Position numbers and translations under genes: made by a program. Source: a virus. From it: a stretch of 64,000 nucleotides of DNA. Shown here in pieces: positions 20,999 to 62,851 of the stretch; within the stretch, counting starts at the first letter, position 1; the number at the start of each line of letters is the position of its first letter. A model generated the notes under the pieces. It saw nothing but the letters and a program-made list of their open reading frames with translations. It was not told the origin of the DNA and ran no database searches. The stretch covers positions 23,212 through 87,211 of the IMG/VR virus record IMGVR_UViG_3300044994_000320; one strand, written 5' to 3'.

Positions 20999-21832
20999 AT
21001 GAAAGTATGTTTAATCCTCTCCGGCGGAGGTTCAAACGGTATCGTTCAGGTAGGCTACTGTAAGTATTTCGCCGAAAAAAACGTTCAATTTGAAGTTATT
21101 ACCGGCACGTCTACGGGAGCTTTACAAGGCGCAATGTACGCACAAAATCGATTCGACGAGCTAATGAAAATCTGGTACTCCATAGGTAGCCACAAGGACA
21201 TCTACAGGCACCATTTTCCGTTCTCATTTTTGCAAGGTATTTTTAAGAAGTCTTTGTACTCCGCTGCGCCGCTAAGAAATAAAATCGACGCTTTTGTTGA
21301 TGTAGATGTTTTGATCAAATCGCGCCAAAGATTCATTTCGTGTTCTACGAATATCACTACTCAGAAAGTGCATTACGTGGAGTCCACTGAAGACAACCGC
21401 CATCTGATTAAAGATTTCATCTATGCCTCTGCTGCTTTTCCCCTTGCTTTTGAGCCAGTACAAAAAAACGGAGAGTATTTTTGGGATGGCGGGTTGGTAG
21501 AGCCTATACCAGTTAAACGCGCAGTAGAGGCGTGCCCAGATGCGGATCTTTATATCATCGGTCTAACCAACCCGGTGTACGAAGTACCCAAAAAAGATTT
21601 CGGCAAAACCATTTTAGGTTTTACCTTTCGAGCTATAGAAAGCATGTTTCAAGAAATCTGGGAAAACGACATCGAAAAAGGTCAGAAGTATTGGGTAGAT
21701 TCTAAGTTTGTTCTACTCTCGCCAGACTATCCGCCGTTTCCATCTTCACTTGAATGGTATCCTAACATGTACGATGATAAAATCGCTCTTGGGTATAACA
21801 TCGCGCGAAATGTGCTCCAAGGAGTTTTATGA
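20999..21832 (+). CDS. Patatin-like phospholipase
   Basis: All three signatures of the patatin-like family are present: the oxyanion-hole glycine run GGGSNG (9-14), the nucleophile elbow GTSTG with Ser38, and the second dyad residue in DGG (D163-G165). Members hydrolyse acyl chains of membrane phospholipids. At 277 residues it is a complete single-domain enzyme. It overlaps the following gene by ATGA and is surrounded by membrane and cell-wall genes, so a role in membrane disruption during lysis or in entry is a reasonable inference. Confidence 0.85.
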   Translation: MKVCLILSGGGSNGIVQVGYCKYFAEKNVQFEVITGTSTGALQGAMYAQNRFDELMKIWYSIGSHKDIYRHHFPFSFLQGIFKKSLYSAAPLRNKIDAFVDVDVLIKSRQRFISCSTNITTQKVHYVESTEDNRHLIKDFIYASAAFPLAFEPVQKNGEYFWDGGLVEPIPVKRAVEACPDADLYIIGLTNPVYEVPKKDFGKTILGFTFRAIESMFQEIWENDIEKGQKYWVDSKFVLLSPDYPPFPSSLEWYPNMYDDKIALGYNIARNVLQGVL

Positions 21833-51508: not shown

Positions 51509-52237
51509 ATGAGTACAGAAGTTACAAGTCTCGATTCAATTTTTGATAAGACTGAGTCGATTCAAGATAAAGCCAAGGATGTCGATGAGCGAAGAAAGAA
51601 CTCCGGAAAAGGCGTTCCGTGGCTATTTTTAGAGGAAGGTGATGAGGCCCTTGTGCGATTTTTGCACCGTGACCCCGTTCTTTACTATTCCCATCGAGTT
51701 TGGGACCCGGACAAAAGCGAAGGCAAAGGCGGATATGTCAATCTTACCTGTACAAAAGCTGCCGGTCGTTGCCCTTTGTGCGAAGTAGGCGAAAAACGTA
51801 GCTATAAAGGTGCGTACCTTGTTTTGCATATAAACAACACCGGTGATGGCGACAAGGTTGTTCCGATGGTCAAGATGCTGATTCGTGGTATTAACGACTT
51901 GCGTATGCTTGAAGCTAAATCGAAAAAGTTCGATCTTACAAAAGTAAACCTCGAAGTGTCGCGTGTCGGTTCCAGCACAGATTCGCGGCTTATACTCGAT
52001 CGCAGTGAGGATACTACAATGCCTGAGTTTGACCGTACCCCAATCGACGGTGCGTCAAACGAAGAGCAGTATGTAGCGTTCCTCAAAAAGAAGCTGAAGC
52101 CAGACATGAAGAAAATGGAGGCCATAGCCGGCACAAAGCGCGGCTCTTCAAAAGGCTCGAACAGCCAGGAATCCGACAAAAAATCGCAAACAAACACCAG
52201 TACGGAATCCGATGATGACGATGACATTCCATTTTAA
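51509..52237 (+). CDS. Single-stranded DNA-binding protein
   Basis: This 242-residue protein has a central OB-type region with a zinc site (C81, C88, C91 in CTKAAGRCPLC), as in T4 gp32-like proteins. A Ser/Lys-rich linker leads to a C-terminal acidic tip DDDDDIPF, the conserved end through which SSBs recruit replication and repair partners. It lies between polymerase and RecA genes. The combination of a gp32-like zinc core and a bacterial-type tip is notable. Confidence 0.88.
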   Translation: MSTEVTSLDSIFDKTESIQDKAKDVDERRKNSGKGVPWLFLEEGDEALVRFLHRDPVLYYSHRVWDPDKSEGKGGYVNLTCTKAAGRCPLCEVGEKRSYKGAYLVLHINNTGDGDKVVPMVKMLIRGINDLRMLEAKSKKFDLTKVNLEVSRVGSSTDSRLILDRSEDTTMPEFDRTPIDGASNEEQYVAFLKKKLKPDMKKMEAIAGTKRGSSKGSNSQESDKKSQTNTSTESDDDDDIPF

Positions 52238-52288: not shown

Positions 52289-53305
52289 ATGCAAAAAGCG
52301 TTTTTAGACGCGCTTGCGAAGCGTTTTGGAAAAGACGTTCTCGTACCGGGCGCAAATTTTGAATCAAACAGTTTTCGTGTATCTACCGGAAGTTTTGGCC
52401 TTGATTGGGCCACGGGTGGAGGATGGCCGAGAGGTAGGTTGAACTTACTCTGCGGTCCGTATTCTTCCGGTAAAAGTTTTCTTGTGTATAAGTCAATCGC
52501 ACAAGTTTCAAAGGAAGGTAAGCAAGTAGCTTGGCTTGATGTAGAAGGGGCTTTCGATACCGATTGGGCTAAAAAGTGCGGCGCAGATGTATCGAATATT
52601 TTAGTAAACCGCGGAGAAACCGCAGAAGAAGTCCTCGATCTATGTGAGGCTCTCGCAGAAAGCGGAGAAGTAAGTGCCATTGTTTTAGATTCCATCGCCG
52701 CCCTTGTTCCAAAAGATGAAAAAGAAGAGTCTCTTGAACAGTGGCAAATGGGTCTCGGTGCAAGGCTATTAAACAAGTCCATGCGAAAATTGCAGTCGGC
52801 GTTAAACAAAGCTTCACGAGGTAAATCAGAACCACCGCTTGTTTTCTTCATTAACCAGTTAAGAATGAAAATAGGCGTAGTGTACGGTAGTCCAGAAACT
52901 CTTCCTTACGGAGAAGGGCAAAAGTATTTTGCACAAGTACGCGCAGATGTTCGCGGCGAAGGTGTCGACGAAGATGGAATGGCGCAAAGTAGGGTTAAGT
53001 TTGAGAAAAACAAGACCGCTCCGCCAAAAAAGGTGTGGTCTGTTCAGTTTTACACCGAAGGCCCAAATGCGGGTAAGCTAAACAGTTCTTTCGACCTAAT
53101 GCGATTCGCCGAAGATTGTGGGCTAATTCAAAGAAACAAAGGTTGGCTTACCGTTGCTGGCAACGCTAAAAATTTTCGCGAAAAAGACATCTTTGAGATG
53201 TTTGTGAACGATACTACGTTTCGTGAAGAAGTAATAGCACTCGCTACGTCCTCTTGGCCTACAGGTCTATTGCGCCACCCAGCAAGCACTTATGAGTGGC
53301 TTTGA
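52289..53305 (+). CDS. RecA/UvsX-like recombinase
   Basis: The protein begins with an N-terminal segment and STGSFGLDWATGGGWPRGR, the RecA entry motif. Walker A is GPYSSGKS (56-63), followed by WLDVEGAFD, Walker B SAIVLDSIAALVP and the L2-adjacent FFINQLRMKIGV. At 338 residues it is the size of bacterial RecA. It drives strand exchange and recombination-dependent replication. Confidence 0.93.
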   Translation: MQKAFLDALAKRFGKDVLVPGANFESNSFRVSTGSFGLDWATGGGWPRGRLNLLCGPYSSGKSFLVYKSIAQVSKEGKQVAWLDVEGAFDTDWAKKCGADVSNILVNRGETAEEVLDLCEALAESGEVSAIVLDSIAALVPKDEKEESLEQWQMGLGARLLNKSMRKLQSALNKASRGKSEPPLVFFINQLRMKIGVVYGSPETLPYGEGQKYFAQVRADVRGEGVDEDGMAQSRVKFEKNKTAPPKKVWSVQFYTEGPNAGKLNSSFDLMRFAEDCGLIQRNKGWLTVAGNAKNFREKDIFEMFVNDTTFREEVIALATSSWPTGLLRHPASTYEWL

Positions 53306-53669
53306 CGAAAGTCGTTTACCTAAGTGGCTCCGTAAATCCACGGAGCCAACGTCAGTAAAAAAGAAGTCGCAAAAAGCCGAAAGAGTTTTAGCAAAAGCGT
53401 TATCTATGCGCGCGACCCCAGGATCGGGCAATAAGTTTTTGCACCCAGGCGACATTGCCGGTAAAGGTTTTCGTATTGAGCACAAGATGACGGAAAAAAG
53501 CTCTATTTCAATTAAAGGGGAATGGCTCGATAAAATTCGCCAAGAAGCGATTAGCAAAGGAGATATACCGGCTCTTGCATTAAAAATCGGTGAACGAGAA
53601 GAATGGGTTATGATAGACCTCGAAAGATTCAAGCTGCTTATTGCTTTTATTGATACCTTGGAGGATTAA
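53292..53669 (+). CDS. Hjc-like Holliday-junction nuclease candidate (125 aa)
   Basis: The core ATPGSGNKFLHPGDIAG, followed by FRIEHKM, fits a small PD-(D/E)xK nuclease of the resolvase type, with D in PGDI and the ExK-like pair in EHK. The helix-rich N-terminus is basic. It overlaps recA by 14 bases, which suits a junction-resolving role. A second, RuvC-type resolvase is encoded at 60975. Confidence 0.65.
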   Translation: MSGFDESRLPKWLRKSTEPTSVKKKSQKAERVLAKALSMRATPGSGNKFLHPGDIAGKGFRIEHKMTEKSSISIKGEWLDKIRQEAISKGDIPALALKIGEREEWVMIDLERFKLLIAFIDTLED

Positions 53670-54727: not shown

Positions 54728-55654
54728 GTGGGGCTGCAAGACTTAATGGACGAAATTTCTCTTACAGGTATCGCGGAGACGCAAAAAGAAAGGCAAACAA
54801 TCGTTAAGCCTCTAGAAGAATACCTGTGGCGACTTAACTTTAGTAAAGCTTATGAAGAGCAGCAGTATGGTGGCGTTGTCGAACGAGGCTTTCACCCATC
54901 AGGTCTTGTTAACTCCGAGTGCTGGCGCCAGCTCGCTCTGGAATTTTTAGAGTGCCCAAAGGTAGACGGAGAGTGGGAAATCCCACACCTCACCCGCCGC
55001 GTTTTTGATAACGGGCATAGCGTTCACGAACGTTTGCAGGGGTACTTACAAGGCATTTCAAAGATTCCAGAGCTAGGCGTCGTATTAAAGGGTACTTGGA
55101 AGTGCCGTAGCTGTGGTAAGTACCACGGCGATAATTCTACAGGCCCTATTGTTGAGCCTGAAGTTTGCGAGTGCTCGTGCAAGTCGTTTAAGTACAAAGA
55201 GTGGCGATTGCGTCACAAAGAATTGCGTATCACGGGTAAAACCGATGGTATTTTACAATTCGCCTTTGACAAAAGCCATGTACTTTTGGAAATCAAGAGC
55301 ATAAACACTTTTAGTTTCCAAAATTTGCGCGGAGTTTTAGATGAACACAAGGTGCAGATTAACTTGTACATGTGGTTATCAGGCATTCATCGAGCGCTTT
55401 TTATCTACGAAGATAAGAATAACCAACGTATTCAAGAGTATTCAGTCGATTTTGACTCTAATGTCATCGCGCCGATAATAAAGCAACTCGAAGAGGTAAA
55501 CGCTTTGCTCGATAAAGGACTACTTCCGGATGTGTTGCCAAATAAAAACGCGCAAAAAGCAAAAGATCGAAATAAAGTCTGTAAGCAGTGTGTTTTTAGG
55601 GATCACTGTGAGACTTTCGAAATTCCAGATTGGTTTAAGGAGACCTTAAAATGA
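54728..55654 (+). CDS. Cas4/RecB-like PD-(D/E)xK nuclease with Fe-S site
   Basis: The motif set of Cas4/AddB-type nucleases is present: C65, the helical GHSVHERLQGYL (H100), D173 in GKTDG, E188-x-K190 in LLEIKS, Q210 in the QxxxY motif, and a C-terminal cysteine triad C285, C288, C294. C65 and the triad would ligate a 4Fe-4S cluster. A second cysteine group (C126, C129, C147, C149, C151) is an inserted zinc-type site that is not typical. It is coupled to the MoxR gene by an ATGA overlap. It may process DNA ends during recombination or packaging. Confidence 0.82.
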   Translation: MGLQDLMDEISLTGIAETQKERQTIVKPLEEYLWRLNFSKAYEEQQYGGVVERGFHPSGLVNSECWRQLALEFLECPKVDGEWEIPHLTRRVFDNGHSVHERLQGYLQGISKIPELGVVLKGTWKCRSCGKYHGDNSTGPIVEPEVCECSCKSFKYKEWRLRHKELRITGKTDGILQFAFDKSHVLLEIKSINTFSFQNLRGVLDEHKVQINLYMWLSGIHRALFIYEDKNNQRIQEYSVDFDSNVIAPIIKQLEEVNALLDKGLLPDVLPNKNAQKAKDRNKVCKQCVFRDHCETFEIPDWFKETLK

Positions 55655-56820
55655 AAAAAGAAACGCAAACAGAACTGAAAGTAAATCAGAAAACTACTCT
55701 TGTTGATGAAGCGCGGTTAAACGCCGCAAAAGAAAATTACCTACAGTTTTTTAAGGGCATAAAAGAATGCCTTATTGGAAGAGACATAGAGATCGCTGCA
55801 ATAGCCACCGCTATTTGCATGAAAGAGCATGTCCTGCTTAAAGGACCGCCTGGTGAAGCCAAGTCTATGGTTTCAAAGCTTGTGTTCGAGAATATCCAAG
55901 GAGCGACCATGTTCAAAGCACAGCTTAGCCGTTATACCTCAGAAGACTTACTTTTTGGCCCACCAGATTTTGAAGAAATTAAAAAAGGGCGCTTAGTAAG
56001 AAACATCCAAAACTCGATGCTTACTGCCAATTTTGTGTTCTTAGATGAAATCTTGAACGCTTCTTTGGAGCTTATCTGCTCTATGAATGAGGTGTTAAAC
56101 GAGCGGTCGTTTACACGTAACGCTCAGCAAGTATCTTGTCCTCTTGTAAGCGCCGTTATGACAACAAATGAGCGAAAAGAAAAGCATAGCGAGTATGCGG
56201 CATTCTATGACCGTGTTTTGTTTAACATAGAGGTCTCTCCGTTGAGCTACGAAGATATGGAGAAAGTCCTTTTAGGCGCTTACAGCAAAAATCCCCCCAA
56301 AATAGCTTTCGAGGATATTCAGCTTGTGGTAGAGAACTTCGACCCTTCGAGTATCACGCTCCCACCTATGTTCGTAAAAGACTTTATCGAGGTTATGCAA
56401 GATTTAGCTCGATGCATGGGTCGTACGTCATTTTCTACTCGTACCGCGCAGAAAATTATGACGCTTCTTAAATGCAGCGCATACATGAATATGCGTTCTC
56501 GTGTATCCGCTCAAGACCTCGATATTTTAGGTCTCTTGTCGGAAAAGCCAGAAGAAAAAGATCGCATAGAAGAGTTGTTTCGTGACATTAAAAAGAAAAC
56601 TTACTTTATCGACGACTCAAAAGTTCGTGCGGTTTTTGATAAGATAAAATCTAATTCATCGCAGTCTATCTCTGATAAATCAAAAATGCTTGGAAAACTG
56701 CAAATAGACGCCGCCAAAGCTGGATTTTCAAGTCTAAGTAAAGAAATCTTGGAGTACGAAAAAACGCTAACGGCGCAAGCTAAGAGTCTTGAAGACTTCA
56801 CTATCGGGAAAGGTCAATGA
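55651..56820 (+). CDS. MoxR-family AAA+ ATPase
   Basis: Walker A is GPPGEAKS (65-72), the GxPGxAKS/T form of MoxR proteins, with Walker B VFLDEI (129-134), followed by NEVLNERSFTRN and sensor 1 VMTTNE. The lid domain follows from about 240. In bacteria such ATPases (RavA, MoxR) work with VWA-domain partners to load metals or remodel complexes. A VWA protein is encoded two genes downstream. ATGA overlaps bind it to both neighbours. Confidence 0.9.
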   Translation: MKKETQTELKVNQKTTLVDEARLNAAKENYLQFFKGIKECLIGRDIEIAAIATAICMKEHVLLKGPPGEAKSMVSKLVFENIQGATMFKAQLSRYTSEDLLFGPPDFEEIKKGRLVRNIQNSMLTANFVFLDEILNASLELICSMNEVLNERSFTRNAQQVSCPLVSAVMTTNERKEKHSEYAAFYDRVLFNIEVSPLSYEDMEKVLLGAYSKNPPKIAFEDIQLVVENFDPSSITLPPMFVKDFIEVMQDLARCMGRTSFSTRTAQKIMTLLKCSAYMNMRSRVSAQDLDILGLLSEKPEEKDRIEELFRDIKKKTYFIDDSKVRAVFDKIKSNSSQSISDKSKMLGKLQIDAAKAGFSSLSKEILEYEKTLTAQAKSLEDFTIGKGQ

Positions 56821-57140
56821 CTGAAGCTAAGATAAAGGTACTCTATCAAGGTTCCTTACTTGAAAAGTACGTTGATGACGCCGAAAGCCTTTTTAATACT
56901 GCAGGTGTCGATTTTGCTTCTATAAAGGCTGTGCACTTCGGCGATATAGTGCCTCCGCCAGAGTATATACAAGCTCTTGGTCAAACAATCGACAACAAGA
57001 TTATCGTTCTTACGAAACTGGATAAAAAATGCGCGGTTTCGACCGTAAAGGTAGGAGCCGAAATCAAAAGGCTAAAATACGTTTTGTACATAGGCCCGAT
57101 GTTTTTTGCTGTTAACGAATTCAAACGGAGGATTCCATGA
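56817..57140 (+). CDS. Hypothetical protein between MoxR and VWA genes (107 aa)
   Basis: It is an unrecognised small alpha/beta protein, overlapped by ATGA at both ends. The strict coupling suggests it is a subunit or adaptor of the MoxR-VWA pair. It has no cysteine pairs or membrane segments. Confidence 0.55.
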   Translation: MTEAKIKVLYQGSLLEKYVDDAESLFNTAGVDFASIKAVHFGDIVPPPEYIQALGQTIDNKIIVLTKLDKKCAVSTVKVGAEIKRLKYVLYIGPMFFAVNEFKRRIP

Positions 57141-58534
57141 AACTGTTTCCAACAAATTTCAGATTTGTGCGTATTGACCTTCCACAAGAAATGGAAGATT
57201 TGATACAGAGTATTTATGAGGCCCTTTCGCCAGAAGTTCGCGGAATGGTCAGTTCGTTTTATTTTAGCGATATGGTTTCAGCGCAATTTTTAGGCGAACG
57301 AGTAAAGAACTATCTTGCAACGATAAACGAATTGCGTATTGAAGCGTCAAACCAAGGCGTTCTTAATTACAAAGACGCAGTAGAGCTTTTTATTGAGTAT
57401 CGTCGATCCATTCTCGAATATGTTCAGTGCAATATGTATTATGCTATTCAGATGGCTCCCGGCACAGCTTTAGAGCTTACAGAAGTCGTGTGTTTTTTTC
57501 TTGCCGGAATGCTCGAAGGCTTAGCCAATTCAAATACGCCGCCAGTTCCTGTTCCTGGGCAGAGCACTTCTGTCCCTGGGCCGCAGGTTTCCAGAAACAG
57601 CAAAAGTTCTGTTGATTATACGGCTTCGGCTCTAGCTGCGTGGAGAGACATCCCATCGCTTTTCGATTTGCTTAGTAGCTATTCCGGCATAAGGCAAAAG
57701 AACACTGGTAATGCTACAGGTGCGAGTAGAAGTAATGCTCGAACTTTTACGAGAAAGCAGCTTATCCGCGAAATCGAAGAACGCATGGTAGATATAAGCA
57801 GTAAGGTGTACCAAGTTGGCAGCCTGTTCGATATTGCCAGGTCAATCCAAGCGTCTCTTGATTTAGCTCTCGGAGGAGCGACAGAGGAGTCTCACGTTGT
57901 CTCAACCGATGTGGATTTTAGGAAAATCCAATCGTTGAGTGAACTACCGAATCAAGTTATCGAATACCCAGAAGAAATGGCGGATTCTTTGGCGCTATCT
58001 AAGAATCTACGTGTGCAAAAGTATGCCCGTCGTGTAAAAGGTAAAATCTCTGCGGCGATAGCTTTCGATGTTTCAGGGTCTATTAACGATCGCAGAGAGA
58101 CCCTCATAAAAGGTTGTGTTATGGCTTACGGGCAGCGTGTTGCAAAAGAAGGCGGCGTTCTGGATATTGCGTATTTTCACGATTGGGTTTCTGACTACTT
58201 GCATGTAACCGACGACAGAACTTGGTCTGCAAGTTTGAAAGAGATTTTTGAAATCGAAACAGATGAAGGTACCGACATCGACCGCGCCGTGGCGTCCATT
58301 GCTGAGAGAATCACGATGCAAGGTCTAGATCACGGTATCCTGATAACCGACGGCACACAGGATATGGTCGATACTTCTCGTGTCCCGCAGTCGGCTTGGG
58401 ATAAGATTACCGTTATCTGCCTCGATAGTATGCTACCAAATTTACGTGAAAAGGCGGCAAAGTATTTTAGAGTCGATAGCATGAACATTTCGGCTCATAA
58501 CTTTGCGTCAATCTTCTACGAAATAGAAAAGTGA
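57137..58534 (+). CDS. VWA-domain protein, partner of the MoxR ATPase
   Basis: The C-terminal domain (from about 300) is a von Willebrand A fold with an intact MIDAS: DVSGS (311-315), T379 in EGTD, and TDG (404-406). The N-terminal ~290 residues are helical, with a Pro/Ser-rich linker near 135-155, similar in layout to ViaA/CoxE-type partners of MoxR ATPases. The pair would form a chaperone-like machine. Its substrate in a phage is not known. Confidence 0.88.
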   Translation: MKLFPTNFRFVRIDLPQEMEDLIQSIYEALSPEVRGMVSSFYFSDMVSAQFLGERVKNYLATINELRIEASNQGVLNYKDAVELFIEYRRSILEYVQCNMYYAIQMAPGTALELTEVVCFFLAGMLEGLANSNTPPVPVPGQSTSVPGPQVSRNSKSSVDYTASALAAWRDIPSLFDLLSSYSGIRQKNTGNATGASRSNARTFTRKQLIREIEERMVDISSKVYQVGSLFDIARSIQASLDLALGGATEESHVVSTDVDFRKIQSLSELPNQVIEYPEEMADSLALSKNLRVQKYARRVKGKISAAIAFDVSGSINDRRETLIKGCVMAYGQRVAKEGGVLDIAYFHDWVSDYLHVTDDRTWSASLKEIFEIETDEGTDIDRAVASIAERITMQGLDHGILITDGTQDMVDTSRVPQSAWDKITVICLDSMLPNLREKAAKYFRVDSMNISAHNFASIFYEIEK

Positions 58535-58540
58535 GGAACA

Positions 58541-59077
58541 ATGGACATTAAAAAAGAAATCGCAGAATGGGAGCTACTTGATTCAGAAATCGAAAAAGAA
58601 ATGGCCGAAATCGGCCTTCCAAAAATAAGAAAACCAAAGAACGAAGAATTCCCTGAGTTTCCGCCAGATATATCCACCCTTACCGGGCATGATATTACAA
58701 GGTTAATGGGTGAGTATTCTGCTTGGGCCGGGTATGTGCGCCCATTGCTGGCAAAAGTTCTTGCAAGAAAAGGCATCGAAGAGAATCTACGCGAGAAAGT
58801 CTATTCCCGCGTAGTCATGGAAAATCGCGCAAAAGAAGAAAAAGTTTCTGACGCCAAGTCTGCCGCAGAGGTTGACAGCCACATCATGGCCCTCGATAAG
58901 AAGATTGCAAAAGATGAAGCAAAAGCCACGCATCTACGAGAGCTTCTTACCACGTTGGACAGCTACGTTAAAACGCTTTCTCGGCAGCTTACTCTTTTAG
59001 CTATGGATGAAGATTCCGAAGGAAAGGGGGATCGTCGTGTTATCGGTAAATCCAAAGGAGACATTTATGCAGGTTAG
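58541..59077 (+). CDS. Coiled-coil protein (178 aa)
   Basis: The first 60 residues are acidic with many Glu and Pro. Residues 105-165 form a long coiled coil (SAAEVDSHIMALDKKIAKDE and onward). It follows the VWA gene by six bases. Size and helical layout would also suit a recombination mediator of the UvsY kind, but I see no diagnostic sequence. Confidence 0.5.
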   Translation: MDIKKEIAEWELLDSEIEKEMAEIGLPKIRKPKNEEFPEFPPDISTLTGHDITRLMGEYSAWAGYVRPLLAKVLARKGIEENLREKVYSRVVMENRAKEEKVSDAKSAAEVDSHIMALDKKIAKDEAKATHLRELLTTLDSYVKTLSRQLTLLAMDEDSEGKGDRRVIGKSKGDIYAG

Positions 59078-59765
59078 TTCAGACATCCCTGTTCACGAGA
59101 TATTCCCTACAGTACAAGGAGAGGGTAGATATTTGGGCTACCCCGCCGTGTTTATTCGACTTCAAGGGTGCAACTACGGGCTAAAAATTTGTCCGTGGTG
59201 TGACCAGGCCGATTCCACAATTATGTCCAAGAGAGCAGAAAGGCTTATGTCTCCAGAAGACGTTTTTCGGCGTGTAGTAGAAGCTGCAGATGCTATCAAG
59301 GCAAAGCTTGTCGTTCTCACTGGTGGAGAGCCTACCGCGTTTAAGTATTGGGAACCCCTAATCCAAGGTCTTATGGGGTTAGGTAAGTTTGAGCGCTGTG
59401 TCGTAGAAACTAACGGCTCTACAAAAGAAATCTTGATTCCGCGCTATTTACACGATGTGACCTTCTCCATCGCCCCAAAAATAGCTACATGGCGTCCAGA
59501 CATCTATAAAGATGTCGATTCTTACTTAAAGCTTACAGTTGGCCCAGATTCTTTAGAGATCAATGATAACGCAATAAGTCAATTCCTTGCTTTACGTAAA
59601 GACGTTCAGGTCTATATACAGCCTTGCGATATGTCCTCAGTTACAGGAAGTGCCAAGTTTACTTACGCCGAGTCTTACGCGTATTTTCTAGAGCTGTGCG
59701 AGAGATACCCAAAAGCTGACTTGCGTATGGGTATTCAAGCGCATAAAGTGTGGGGTGTCAGATGA
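59067..59765 (+). CDS. queE: 7-carboxy-7-deazaguanine synthase (QueE, radical SAM)
   Basis: ATG 59067 behind AAAGGAG is preferred. The protein starts with EIFPTVQGEG and GYPAVFIRLQGCN, the QueE signature, and has TGGEPT (85-90). It makes CDG, the precursor of preQ0, from carboxytetrahydropterin. The radical SAM cysteines are C35, C42 and C45, a C-x6-C-x2-C spacing instead of the usual C-x3-C-x2-C. With FolE and a QueD-like protein nearby it points to deazaguanine synthesis. At 232 residues it has normal length. Confidence 0.88.
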   Translation: MQVSSDIPVHEIFPTVQGEGRYLGYPAVFIRLQGCNYGLKICPWCDQADSTIMSKRAERLMSPEDVFRRVVEAADAIKAKLVVLTGGEPTAFKYWEPLIQGLMGLGKFERCVVETNGSTKEILIPRYLHDVTFSIAPKIATWRPDIYKDVDSYLKLTVGPDSLEINDNAISQFLALRKDVQVYIQPCDMSSVTGSAKFTYAESYAYFLELCERYPKADLRMGIQAHKVWGVR

Positions 59766-60974: not shown

Positions 60975-61538
60975 ATGATTGTCTTGGGGCTCGATTCCGG
61001 CGGTCGCTATAACGGCTTAGCTGTTGGCGACTTGGTTAAAAAAAGCATAAATCGCGCAGAGCTTTTTATGCAACCATTTACAAAACCATCTCCCGATAAG
61101 TTAATCCAAGTTGTAGAATTTGCTACAAGTTGGGTCACAAAATTTAAGCCCGCGTGCGTCGTAGCAGAAAACTACGCATTTGGTGGTATGAATTTTAATC
61201 GTGAAGTGCCAGAAGTTTTTGGTGTTTACAAGATGGTTTTTCATAAGTGCCGCGTGCCCTTGATACTTGTTCCACCGTCAAGCGCAAAGAAAGCAGTCAC
61301 CGGTTCAGGTAGAGCGACTAAAGCAGAAGTTCAGAAAGCCGCAAAAGAGTTCATCGTTAAAAATAAGGTCGATGTTGTTATTGAGGCTTTACCTCGTGAG
61401 CTTCAATCTCATCCGTATGATGCGCTTTCACTTCTTGTAGCTTTGGTTCGAGCAGACAAAGAGTCGCCTATACGCAGAGACTTGCGAATAGTAGGAGAAT
61501 TTTACGGGATCAATCTTTTAGGAGCACTGTATGAGTGA
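60975..61538 (+). CDS. RuvC-like Holliday-junction resolvase
   Basis: The RNase H-like fold is marked by LGLDSG (D7), VVAENYAFG (E65) and the C-terminal HPYDALSLL (H146, D149), the catalytic residues of the RuvC family. The central KKAVTGSGRATKAEVQ helix also matches. At 187 residues it is RuvC-sized. It would cut recombination junctions before packaging. Confidence 0.8.
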   Translation: MIVLGLDSGGRYNGLAVGDLVKKSINRAELFMQPFTKPSPDKLIQVVEFATSWVTKFKPACVVAENYAFGGMNFNREVPEVFGVYKMVFHKCRVPLILVPPSSAKKAVTGSGRATKAEVQKAAKEFIVKNKVDVVIEALPRELQSHPYDALSLLVALVRADKESPIRRDLRIVGEFYGINLLGALYE

Positions 61539-61830
61539 AGCCCCAACAGGTACAAGCAGTAGTATAGAATTGAAAGTCGCTGCTTCCAATAATGTTCAAA
61601 AAACTGCTACTGCTATTGTTAAAAATATCCAAGAAGGAAAACAAGTAAGCGTTTCAGCAGTAGGCCCAGAAGCTGTTAATCAAGCAGTCAAAAGTGTGGC
61701 CGCAGCACGAGGTAAAATTGCTTCAAACGGTGTGAACCTTCTGGCGCAAATCGGCTTTCGTACTTTCAAACAAGACGAAAGTGACGCACGAGAAAAAACA
61801 GCGATGATTTTCAAACTGCTTATACAGTAA
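61531..61830 (+). CDS. SpoVS-like (Alba-fold) protein (99 aa)
   Basis: The body matches the SpoVS family pattern: LKVAASNNVQKTATAIV, then VSAVGPEAVNQAVKSVAAAR, then GVNLLAQIGF and a terminal EKTAMIFKLLI. SpoVS has an Alba-like nucleic-acid-binding fold and is known from sporulation in Bacillus, but occurs in many non-sporulating lineages. Here it is coupled to the RuvC-like and FolE genes, so a DNA- or RNA-binding job in phage metabolism is likely. Confidence 0.75.
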   Translation: MSEAPTGTSSSIELKVAASNNVQKTATAIVKNIQEGKQVSVSAVGPEAVNQAVKSVAAARGKIASNGVNLLAQIGFRTFKQDESDAREKTAMIFKLLIQ

Positions 61831-62429
61831 TGCCTAAAGCTCAAAAGCCTAAGATACCGGGCGTCGATTTTAGGCGCCTTCCAGTTTTAGAAAAACTGTA
61901 CGCGCAGTTTATGACAGAGTTAGGGATAGACCTTAAAGACCCTAACTGTTCAGATACTCCAAAACGTGTGTCCAAGATGTTTCTTGAAGAGTTTACTCCA
62001 GCGTTGTTCAGTCAGCCAGAAGGTATCGTAACCGCTTTTCCAAACGAAAAAAACGTCTATGATCAGTACCTTGCTGTTGGCAACATACCTTTTTACTCGA
62101 TCTGCGCTCACCATCACGTCACGTTTTTCGGCACAGCAAATATCGTGTACCATCCAAAAGATAAGTTGTTAGGACTGAGCAAATTCTCGCGAATTGTGAA
62201 CCATTATTGCAAAAAGCCTCAGATACAAGAAAACCTCACGGCTGAAATTTTAGATGCGGTTGTACGGGCTACAGACCCACACGGCGTTTACGTCAATTTA
62301 GTAGGAAGGCACTTCTGCATGGAATCTAGAGGTGTTCGGTCACACGGGGCCCATACGGTTACGTCAAAAATTTACGGCGAAATCGACAAGAATGAAGCCA
62401 TAAAATTGTTAAGGGAGTATCAACGATGA
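61830..62429 (+). CDS. folE: GTP cyclohydrolase I (FolE-type)
   Basis: The zinc ligands are visible as C92 with H94/H95 in ICAHHH and C163 in HFCMESRGV. Other family parts are DTPKRVSKMF and LGLSKFSRIV. It converts GTP to dihydroneopterin triphosphate, the first step to both folates and deazaguanines. The 199-residue length is usual. Its TAATG start and ATGA end couple it to SpoVS-like and QueD-like genes. Confidence 0.92.
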   Translation: MPKAQKPKIPGVDFRRLPVLEKLYAQFMTELGIDLKDPNCSDTPKRVSKMFLEEFTPALFSQPEGIVTAFPNEKNVYDQYLAVGNIPFYSICAHHHVTFFGTANIVYHPKDKLLGLSKFSRIVNHYCKKPQIQENLTAEILDAVVRATDPHGVYVNLVGRHFCMESRGVRSHGAHTVTSKIYGEIDKNEAIKLLREYQR

Positions 62430-62851
62430 TAAAACTGTTGAAAGATAAAAAGAAATCAAAAGTGCGGGAGCGTCTCGACAAAAAAGTGCGTAGATTTATC
62501 GAATTCAAGTTGCAGTTCCCCAAGGTGCACTGGTTCCCCAAAGCCGAAGGAATTTTCGCGTATTTGAAAAGCCCTCATCGTCACCTATTCCACGTTCATG
62601 TGCGAGTCGAGGTATTTGAAGCCGATAGAGAAATCGAATTTTTAGAGCTTCAAAGAATTACCGCTAACTATATCGGTAGTTCAAAGTGGATAGAGCCGAG
62701 TGAAGATTCCTGCGAGCATATTGCAGAGTACATTCACGGTTTTCTATCCGGCTACCTTGGTAAGTTATCCCCTAATGGTCCGGTTCGCGGTATTTCAGTT
62801 CGCGTACTGGAAGACAACGAAAACGGCGCGGAGTTTCAATCAGACTTATGA
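62426..62851 (+). CDS. Divergent QueD/PTPS-like T-fold protein (141 aa)
   Basis: Although diverged, it keeps the order of 6-carboxytetrahydropterin synthase motifs: H35 and, after a gap, H51-R-H53 as possible zinc ligands, then VHVRVEVFEADREIEFLEL (the F-x-x-L helix), SCEHIAEYIHGFL (like P-T-x-E-N-x-A) and ISVRVLEDNENGAEF (like VRVxETxTxxAEY). The usual catalytic cysteine is not evident. FolE upstream and QueE nearby support this reading. It could also be a related pterin enzyme. Confidence 0.6.
   Translation: MIKLLKDKKKSKVRERLDKKVRRFIEFKLQFPKVHWFPKAEGIFAYLKSPHRHLFHVHVRVEVFEADREIEFLELQRITANYIGSSKWIEPSEDSCEHIAEYIHGFLSGYLGKLSPNGPVRGISVRVLEDNENGAEFQSDL

Follow-up and report, generated by a model that had tools for sequence, protein, structure and literature searches.

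A MoxR-VWA pair and a predicted Cas4-type nuclease share an operon in the replication region of a probable contractile-tailed phage

MoxR rings, as known from RavA-ViaA, CbbQO and midasin, spend ATP on remodelling client proteins that are captured through a partner with a MIDAS-type VWA domain. We know of no client of any bacteriophage MoxR-VWA pair, and the locus described here raises the question of what such a pair would act upon when it is encoded in a phage operon together with a nuclease. The stretch analysed (the window, 64,000 nt) is part of the IMG/VR virus record IMGVR_UViG_3300044994_000320 of 87,211 bases; the source virus is probably a contractile-tailed phage, since the record encodes a terminase, a portal, a major head protein and a tail-sheath match. 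The original prediction described four genes coupled in succession by ATGA, in which a chaperone-like MoxR-VWA pair accompanies a Cas4-like Fe-S nuclease. The ORFs, their + strand, their coordinates and the three overlaps were all confirmed, and the family assignments hold, with motifs intact:

54728..55654, + strand: Cas4-type PD-(D/E)XK nuclease, 308 aa, GTG start with AGGAG upstream
55651..56820, + strand: MoxR (RavA-like) AAA+ ATPase, 389 aa
56817..57140, + strand: orphan protein between the MoxR and VWA genes, 107 aa
57137..58534, + strand: VWA protein, 465 aa

Three successive ATGA junctions join the nuclease, MoxR, 107-aa and VWA genes. The same overlap is present in 10 of the 74 adjacent + strand ORF pairs of the window, and a single one is therefore ordinary here; three in a row are mildly unusual, and mark close co-translation rather than joint function. 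The operon is preceded, in this order, by genes for a DNA ligase, a UvsW-like helicase, a DnaC-like loader, DnaB, a primase, PolA, SSB, UvsX/RecA, a Holliday-junction resolvase and an HTH protein, including:

51509..52237, + strand: single-strand DNA binding protein, SSB (phrog_14578, 8e-9)
52289..53305, + strand: UvsX/RecA-type recombinase (PF00154, 4e-60; phrog_97, 2e-51)
53292..53669, + strand: Holliday-junction resolvase-like protein of the recombinase cassette (phrog_2002, 5.9e-24)

Downstream of the operon lie QueE, RuvC, FolE and QueD-like genes. The MoxR-VWA pair is situated within this replication region, and the terminase, head and sheath genes that could be identified lie ~25-50 kb away. 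Some genes of a 7-deazaguanine (preQ0) pathway are recognisable nearby, namely a QueE-like gene (59007-59765), FolE, a GTP cyclohydrolase (61830-62429), and a weak QueD-like match (62426-62851); they suggest that the phage DNA is modified, and in phage 9g a Cas4-like nuclease is also found close to deazaguanine genes (PMC5567051). The early region further encodes a SpoVS-domain protein of 99 aa (61531-61830; PF04232, 5e-18), and a patatin-like phospholipase is encoded amid the structural gene block (20999-21832; PF01734, 1e-34).

The nuclease matches phrog_1706 (3e-28) and phrog_1990 (1e-20), as well as the cas4 model TIGR00372 at 8.8e-8, which is under the cutoff of that model, and its profile matches the solved structure 4ic1 (1e-6). 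The PD-(D/E)XK motifs are complete (D173, E188-x-K190, Q210-x3-Y214) and four Fe-S-type cysteines are present (C65, C285, C288, C294), with C65, D173, E188, K190, Y214 and C288 conserved in the nuclease alignment (A5); an inserted CxxC...CxC ribbon starting at C126 is shared with relatives in Vibrio and Streptomyces phages. By these motifs and cysteines, the protein is a predicted Fe-S exonuclease of the Cas4/AddB type. Nucleases of this type are located near RecA in Streptomyces, Vibrio and Dulem phages too. A CRISPR role, as for Cas4, was considered and rejected, Cas1 being absent from the 87,211-base record.

The MoxR protein scores 121 bits against the Pfam model bpMoxR (PF20030, 4.6e-35; gathering cutoff 27) and 77.9 bits against the NCBIfam RavA model (8e-22), for which the equivalog cutoff is 681, so that this model does not class it as RavA proper. 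Its ATPase residues are intact: Walker A (GPPGEAKS, 65), Walker B (VFLDE, 129), sensor 1 (N173), the Arg finger (R188) and sensor 2 (R264) are all present. The family profile aligns with RavA (3nbx) at 1.4e-91, the alignment ending near RavA residue 340, and sequence comparison places the protein closest to RavA and bpMoxR. It forms an isolated long branch on the MoxR tree, ~30% identical over the core to its best relatives, and single-protein searches of IMG/VR returned no relatives of the MoxR, VWA or PolA proteins of the window. In sequence the pair is very divergent, and no close relative came up in the searches made.

These matches bear upon two further readings of the pair. CobS-CobT likewise combines a MoxR with a VWA protein, and tailed viruses widely carry cobST (PMC8651126), which could point to auxiliary cobaltochelatase subunits that capture CobN of the host. 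We disfavour this reading and consider it extremely improbable: the window MoxR matches RavA and bpMoxR but no CobS model, CobN is absent from the phage, and a related viral MoxR (L032) reaches 0.02 against the porphyrin-biosynthesis family of PHROGs as opposed to 1e-92 against phrog_19600. The top Pfam model, bpMoxR, takes its name from the MoxR-vWA ternary systems of bacteria, and a counter-defence or conflict function of this kind, as also raised in the original prediction, would fit that name. It seems very unlikely, given that the adjacent genes showed no third component (VMAP, iSTAND, beta-propeller) and no domain of a peptidase or effector, and that the pair is kept across a broad range of viruses.

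The VWA protein has no match to any Pfam VWA model, and its match to the viral VWA profile built here (A3, 1.8e-103) is partly circular, as the window sequence is among the seed rows. The MIDAS residues are kept (D311-x-S-x-S, T379, D405), and AlphaFold2 gives a confident VWA domain at ~300-465 (pLDDT mostly above 85), preceded by a helical N-terminal part of low model confidence. Foldseek matches of the model include ATV ORF892 (p892), whose partnership with a MoxR has been demonstrated, the MIDAS domain of midasin (MDN1-MIDAS) and A7KV72, which we take to be the VWA protein of phage 0305phi8-36; a single-protein search found no relatives in annotated phages. The predicted VWA fold and the complete MIDAS argue for a MoxR-associated type, similar to ViaA and p892, and the intact motifs of both proteins suggest that the MoxR-VWA machine is active. 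The 107-aa protein encoded between them has no Pfam, PHROGs or NCBIfam match. Neither the viral nor the cellular MoxR loci contained a homologue, and phages gave no convincing one; folded alone, it gave no usable model (pLDDT 44).

To place the pair in a wider context, a set of at least 85 viral MoxR representatives was compiled through profile-guided scans of IMG/VR, including the window and two annotated phages. The loci taken are metagenomic fragments whose MoxR matched two conserved patterns; most representatives stand for clusters at 80% MoxR identity, and 16 from the second scan were only identity-filtered. A few of the 85 may be bacterial stretches, such as L182, which groups with enterobacterial RavA. 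Three loci filed as phage (L004, L005, L006) were left out, as their MoxR-VWA or RavA-ViaA-type genes sit beside ordinary bacterial genes and they look like bacterial DNA. Of the 85 representatives among the matches listed, 81 have a VWA gene no more than 5 kb from MoxR, and 61 have DUF6744 at a distance of up to 10 kb. The combination of MoxR with VWA is a module of viruses in general, and its RavA-like members often include DUF6744 as a third gene (e.g., L070:16904-17866, L002:6391-7299 and relatives). The 87-kb record of the window, which may be incomplete, contains no DUF6744 match, and a comparison of the 107-aa protein with DUF6744 gave no match either. The literature searched, with most subscription papers outside its scope, yielded no mention of DUF6744, and the three-gene viral module (DUF6744-MoxR-VWA) with its occasional nuclease link may therefore be unreported. 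A reverse transcriptase is encoded ~3-4 kb downstream of the MoxR start in 12 viral MoxR-VWA lineages (L060:12951-13874, L064:13222-14052, L076:13050-13976 and nine other loci).

The original prediction had regarded the coupling of the nuclease to the pair as constant, and proposed that the pair may mature or remodel this nuclease or another metalloprotein. With detection by the N1 profile, single-sequence searches and a motif scan, by which further nuclease families could be missed, a recognised Fe-S-type nuclease was found within 5 kb of MoxR in 17 of the 85 viral loci among the matches listed, and 68 were without one. In 13 of the 17, the nuclease belongs to a single family (phrog_1218) that goes together with Sak4 and an SSB-like DUF669 protein. 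Single-sequence searches with the remaining four nucleases do not lead from one to another, and the gene orders differ: nuclease-MoxR-small-VWA in the window, Sak4-nuclease-MoxR-VWA-DUF6744 in L035, nuclease-MoxR-VWA-AAA_24-like in L188, and MoxR-VWA-Cas4-like in L097. In ~16 loci, an exonuclease-Sak4-SSB cassette shares the contig stretch with MoxR-VWA, in most cases immediately downstream of VWA; larger phages have the nuclease tens of kilobases from MoxR.

The same question was approached from the nuclease side with a two-sequence alignment, which gave 80 loci with the nuclease type of the window (20 clusters at 80% identity). MoxR, VWA or DUF6744 was found within 7 kb in none of these 80 loci, an absence limited by the many short contigs among them, and a RecA/UvsX-type recombinase was found in 50-52. 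Because of this split, the usual partner of the nuclease type is a recombinase, and that of the MoxR-VWA pair is DUF6744. What holds of the original prediction is a chaperone-like MoxR-VWA pair sharing an operon with a nuclease of Fe-S-type cysteines; a constant coupling to the nuclease does not stand.

The possibility that the pair acts directly on its neighbour, by loading, maturing or remodelling the nuclease or a nuclease-recombinase complex, has to be weighed against these counts. In its favour, adjacent nucleases without detectable mutual homology flank the pair in the window, L035, L188, L097 and the 16-locus N1 family, and on the MoxR tree the nuclease label has to change 10-11 times, with only four of these changes forced by well-supported branches. 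This recurrent adjacency to unrelated nuclease families in several arrangements is suggestive, and a recombination complex, though hypothetical, is plausible. A random-placement test of the nuclease-MoxR distance gave p=0.03 over 26 contigs, but distances were no closer than chance once the dominant N1 family was collapsed (KS p=0.32), and we therefore claim no significance for this closeness. Given also the 68 nuclease-free loci and the lack of the pair in the 80 loci of the nuclease type, we regard direct action on the nuclease as rather unlikely. The remodelling part of the proposal survives as a minor option on account of the unrelated nucleases that recur beside the pair, and nothing in the analysis points to metalloprotein maturation or counter-defence.

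The client could also be a virion protein. To our knowledge, the ATV pair is the only viral MoxR-VWA pair studied experimentally, and it acts on virion proteins. Roles for such pairs had been thought undescribed in phages, but viral pairs are in fact published: p618 (MoxR) of ATV binds p892 (VWA), which stimulates the p618 ATPase, and the two are proposed to act in tail development (PMC4124505); a pair in jumbo phages of group 2.2 is described with a proposed role in virion assembly (PMC7824862); and further pairs are reported in phage 0305phi8-36 (orf66/orf63; PMC2147016) and in Hardycor1 and other haloviruses (PMC7911831). The Foldseek resemblance of the window VWA protein to ORF892 agrees with a virion-assembly chaperone, to which the ATV precedent also points, and early-region neighbours do not define a client. 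The replication-region position of the window pair, far from the terminase, head and sheath genes, speaks against it. In nuclease-free viral MoxR-VWA loci, moreover, the genes that could be recognised nearby encode for the most part helicases, ligases, polymerase, nucleotide-metabolism enzymes and a Rad52-like protein rather than capsid or tail proteins. We consider virion assembly quite unlikely for the window pair; this setting, together with the DNA-metabolism neighbours elsewhere, favours a client in replication-recombination over a virion protein.

We therefore favour, with slightly better than even confidence, the scenario of two known modules in one early operon: a recombination exonuclease, and a RavA/ViaA-like chaperone whose client belongs to replication-recombination. 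The nuclease would be a phage recombination or end-processing exonuclease of the Cas4/AddB type, partnering the UvsX/RecA, SSB and resolvase encoded just upstream. We infer that MoxR forms a ring that hydrolyses ATP, and that the VWA protein would use its Mg-dependent MIDAS site, together with the helical N-terminal part, to capture a client and present it for remodelling. Among possible clients in this phage, a protein from the early programme of DNA replication and recombination is the most likely, and the 107-aa protein may be an adaptor, replacing the usual third gene DUF6744.

A bolder scenario, which we hold to be unlikely, is that viral MoxR-VWA pairs in general are remodelers that load or turn over Fe-S exonuclease-recombinase assemblies, recruited time and again beside unrelated nuclease families, with DUF6744 or small orphan proteins as adaptors. 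If pairs do service recombination nucleases, phages would own a dedicated ATP-driven remodeler for DNA-end processing. Good test cases are provided by the divergent, DUF6744-free version of the window, and by L035, L188 and L097 with their directly adjacent nuclease; RavA-like pairs as such occur in many tailed viruses, usually with DUF6744.

The operon was compared with the closest known systems. With phage Cas4-type exonucleases (phrog_1706, phrog_1990), it has in common the PD-(D/E)XK motifs, the Fe-S-type cysteines and the RecA/UvsX and resolvase neighbourhood, but MoxR-VWA follows the nuclease in the window and in 0 of the 80 loci of its relatives. The ATPase and VWA families and their adjacent order are those of the viral DUF6744-MoxR-VWA module (phrog_19600 / phrog_24053 / PF20529), from which the window differs in lacking DUF6744, in having the orphan 107-aa gene and in a MoxR ~30% identical to its relatives. 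CobS-CobT shares the MoxR-VWA architecture but differs in sequence family, and the phage has no CobN. As in the E. coli chaperone pair RavA-ViaA, a MoxR AAA+ protein is encoded alongside a VWA partner and its AAA core aligns with RavA (3nbx), but the window MoxR has 389 aa against 498-500 in RavA, which seems to leave no room for a LARA domain between the triple-helical segments, and the pair is phage-encoded with an additional small gene. In the archaeal virus ATV (p618-p892), MoxR and VWA are virus-encoded as they are here, and the window VWA protein matches ORF892 in Foldseek; p618 and p892 act together with proteins of the virion and tail (PMC4124505), whereas the window pair is located in the replication operon of a tailed phage.
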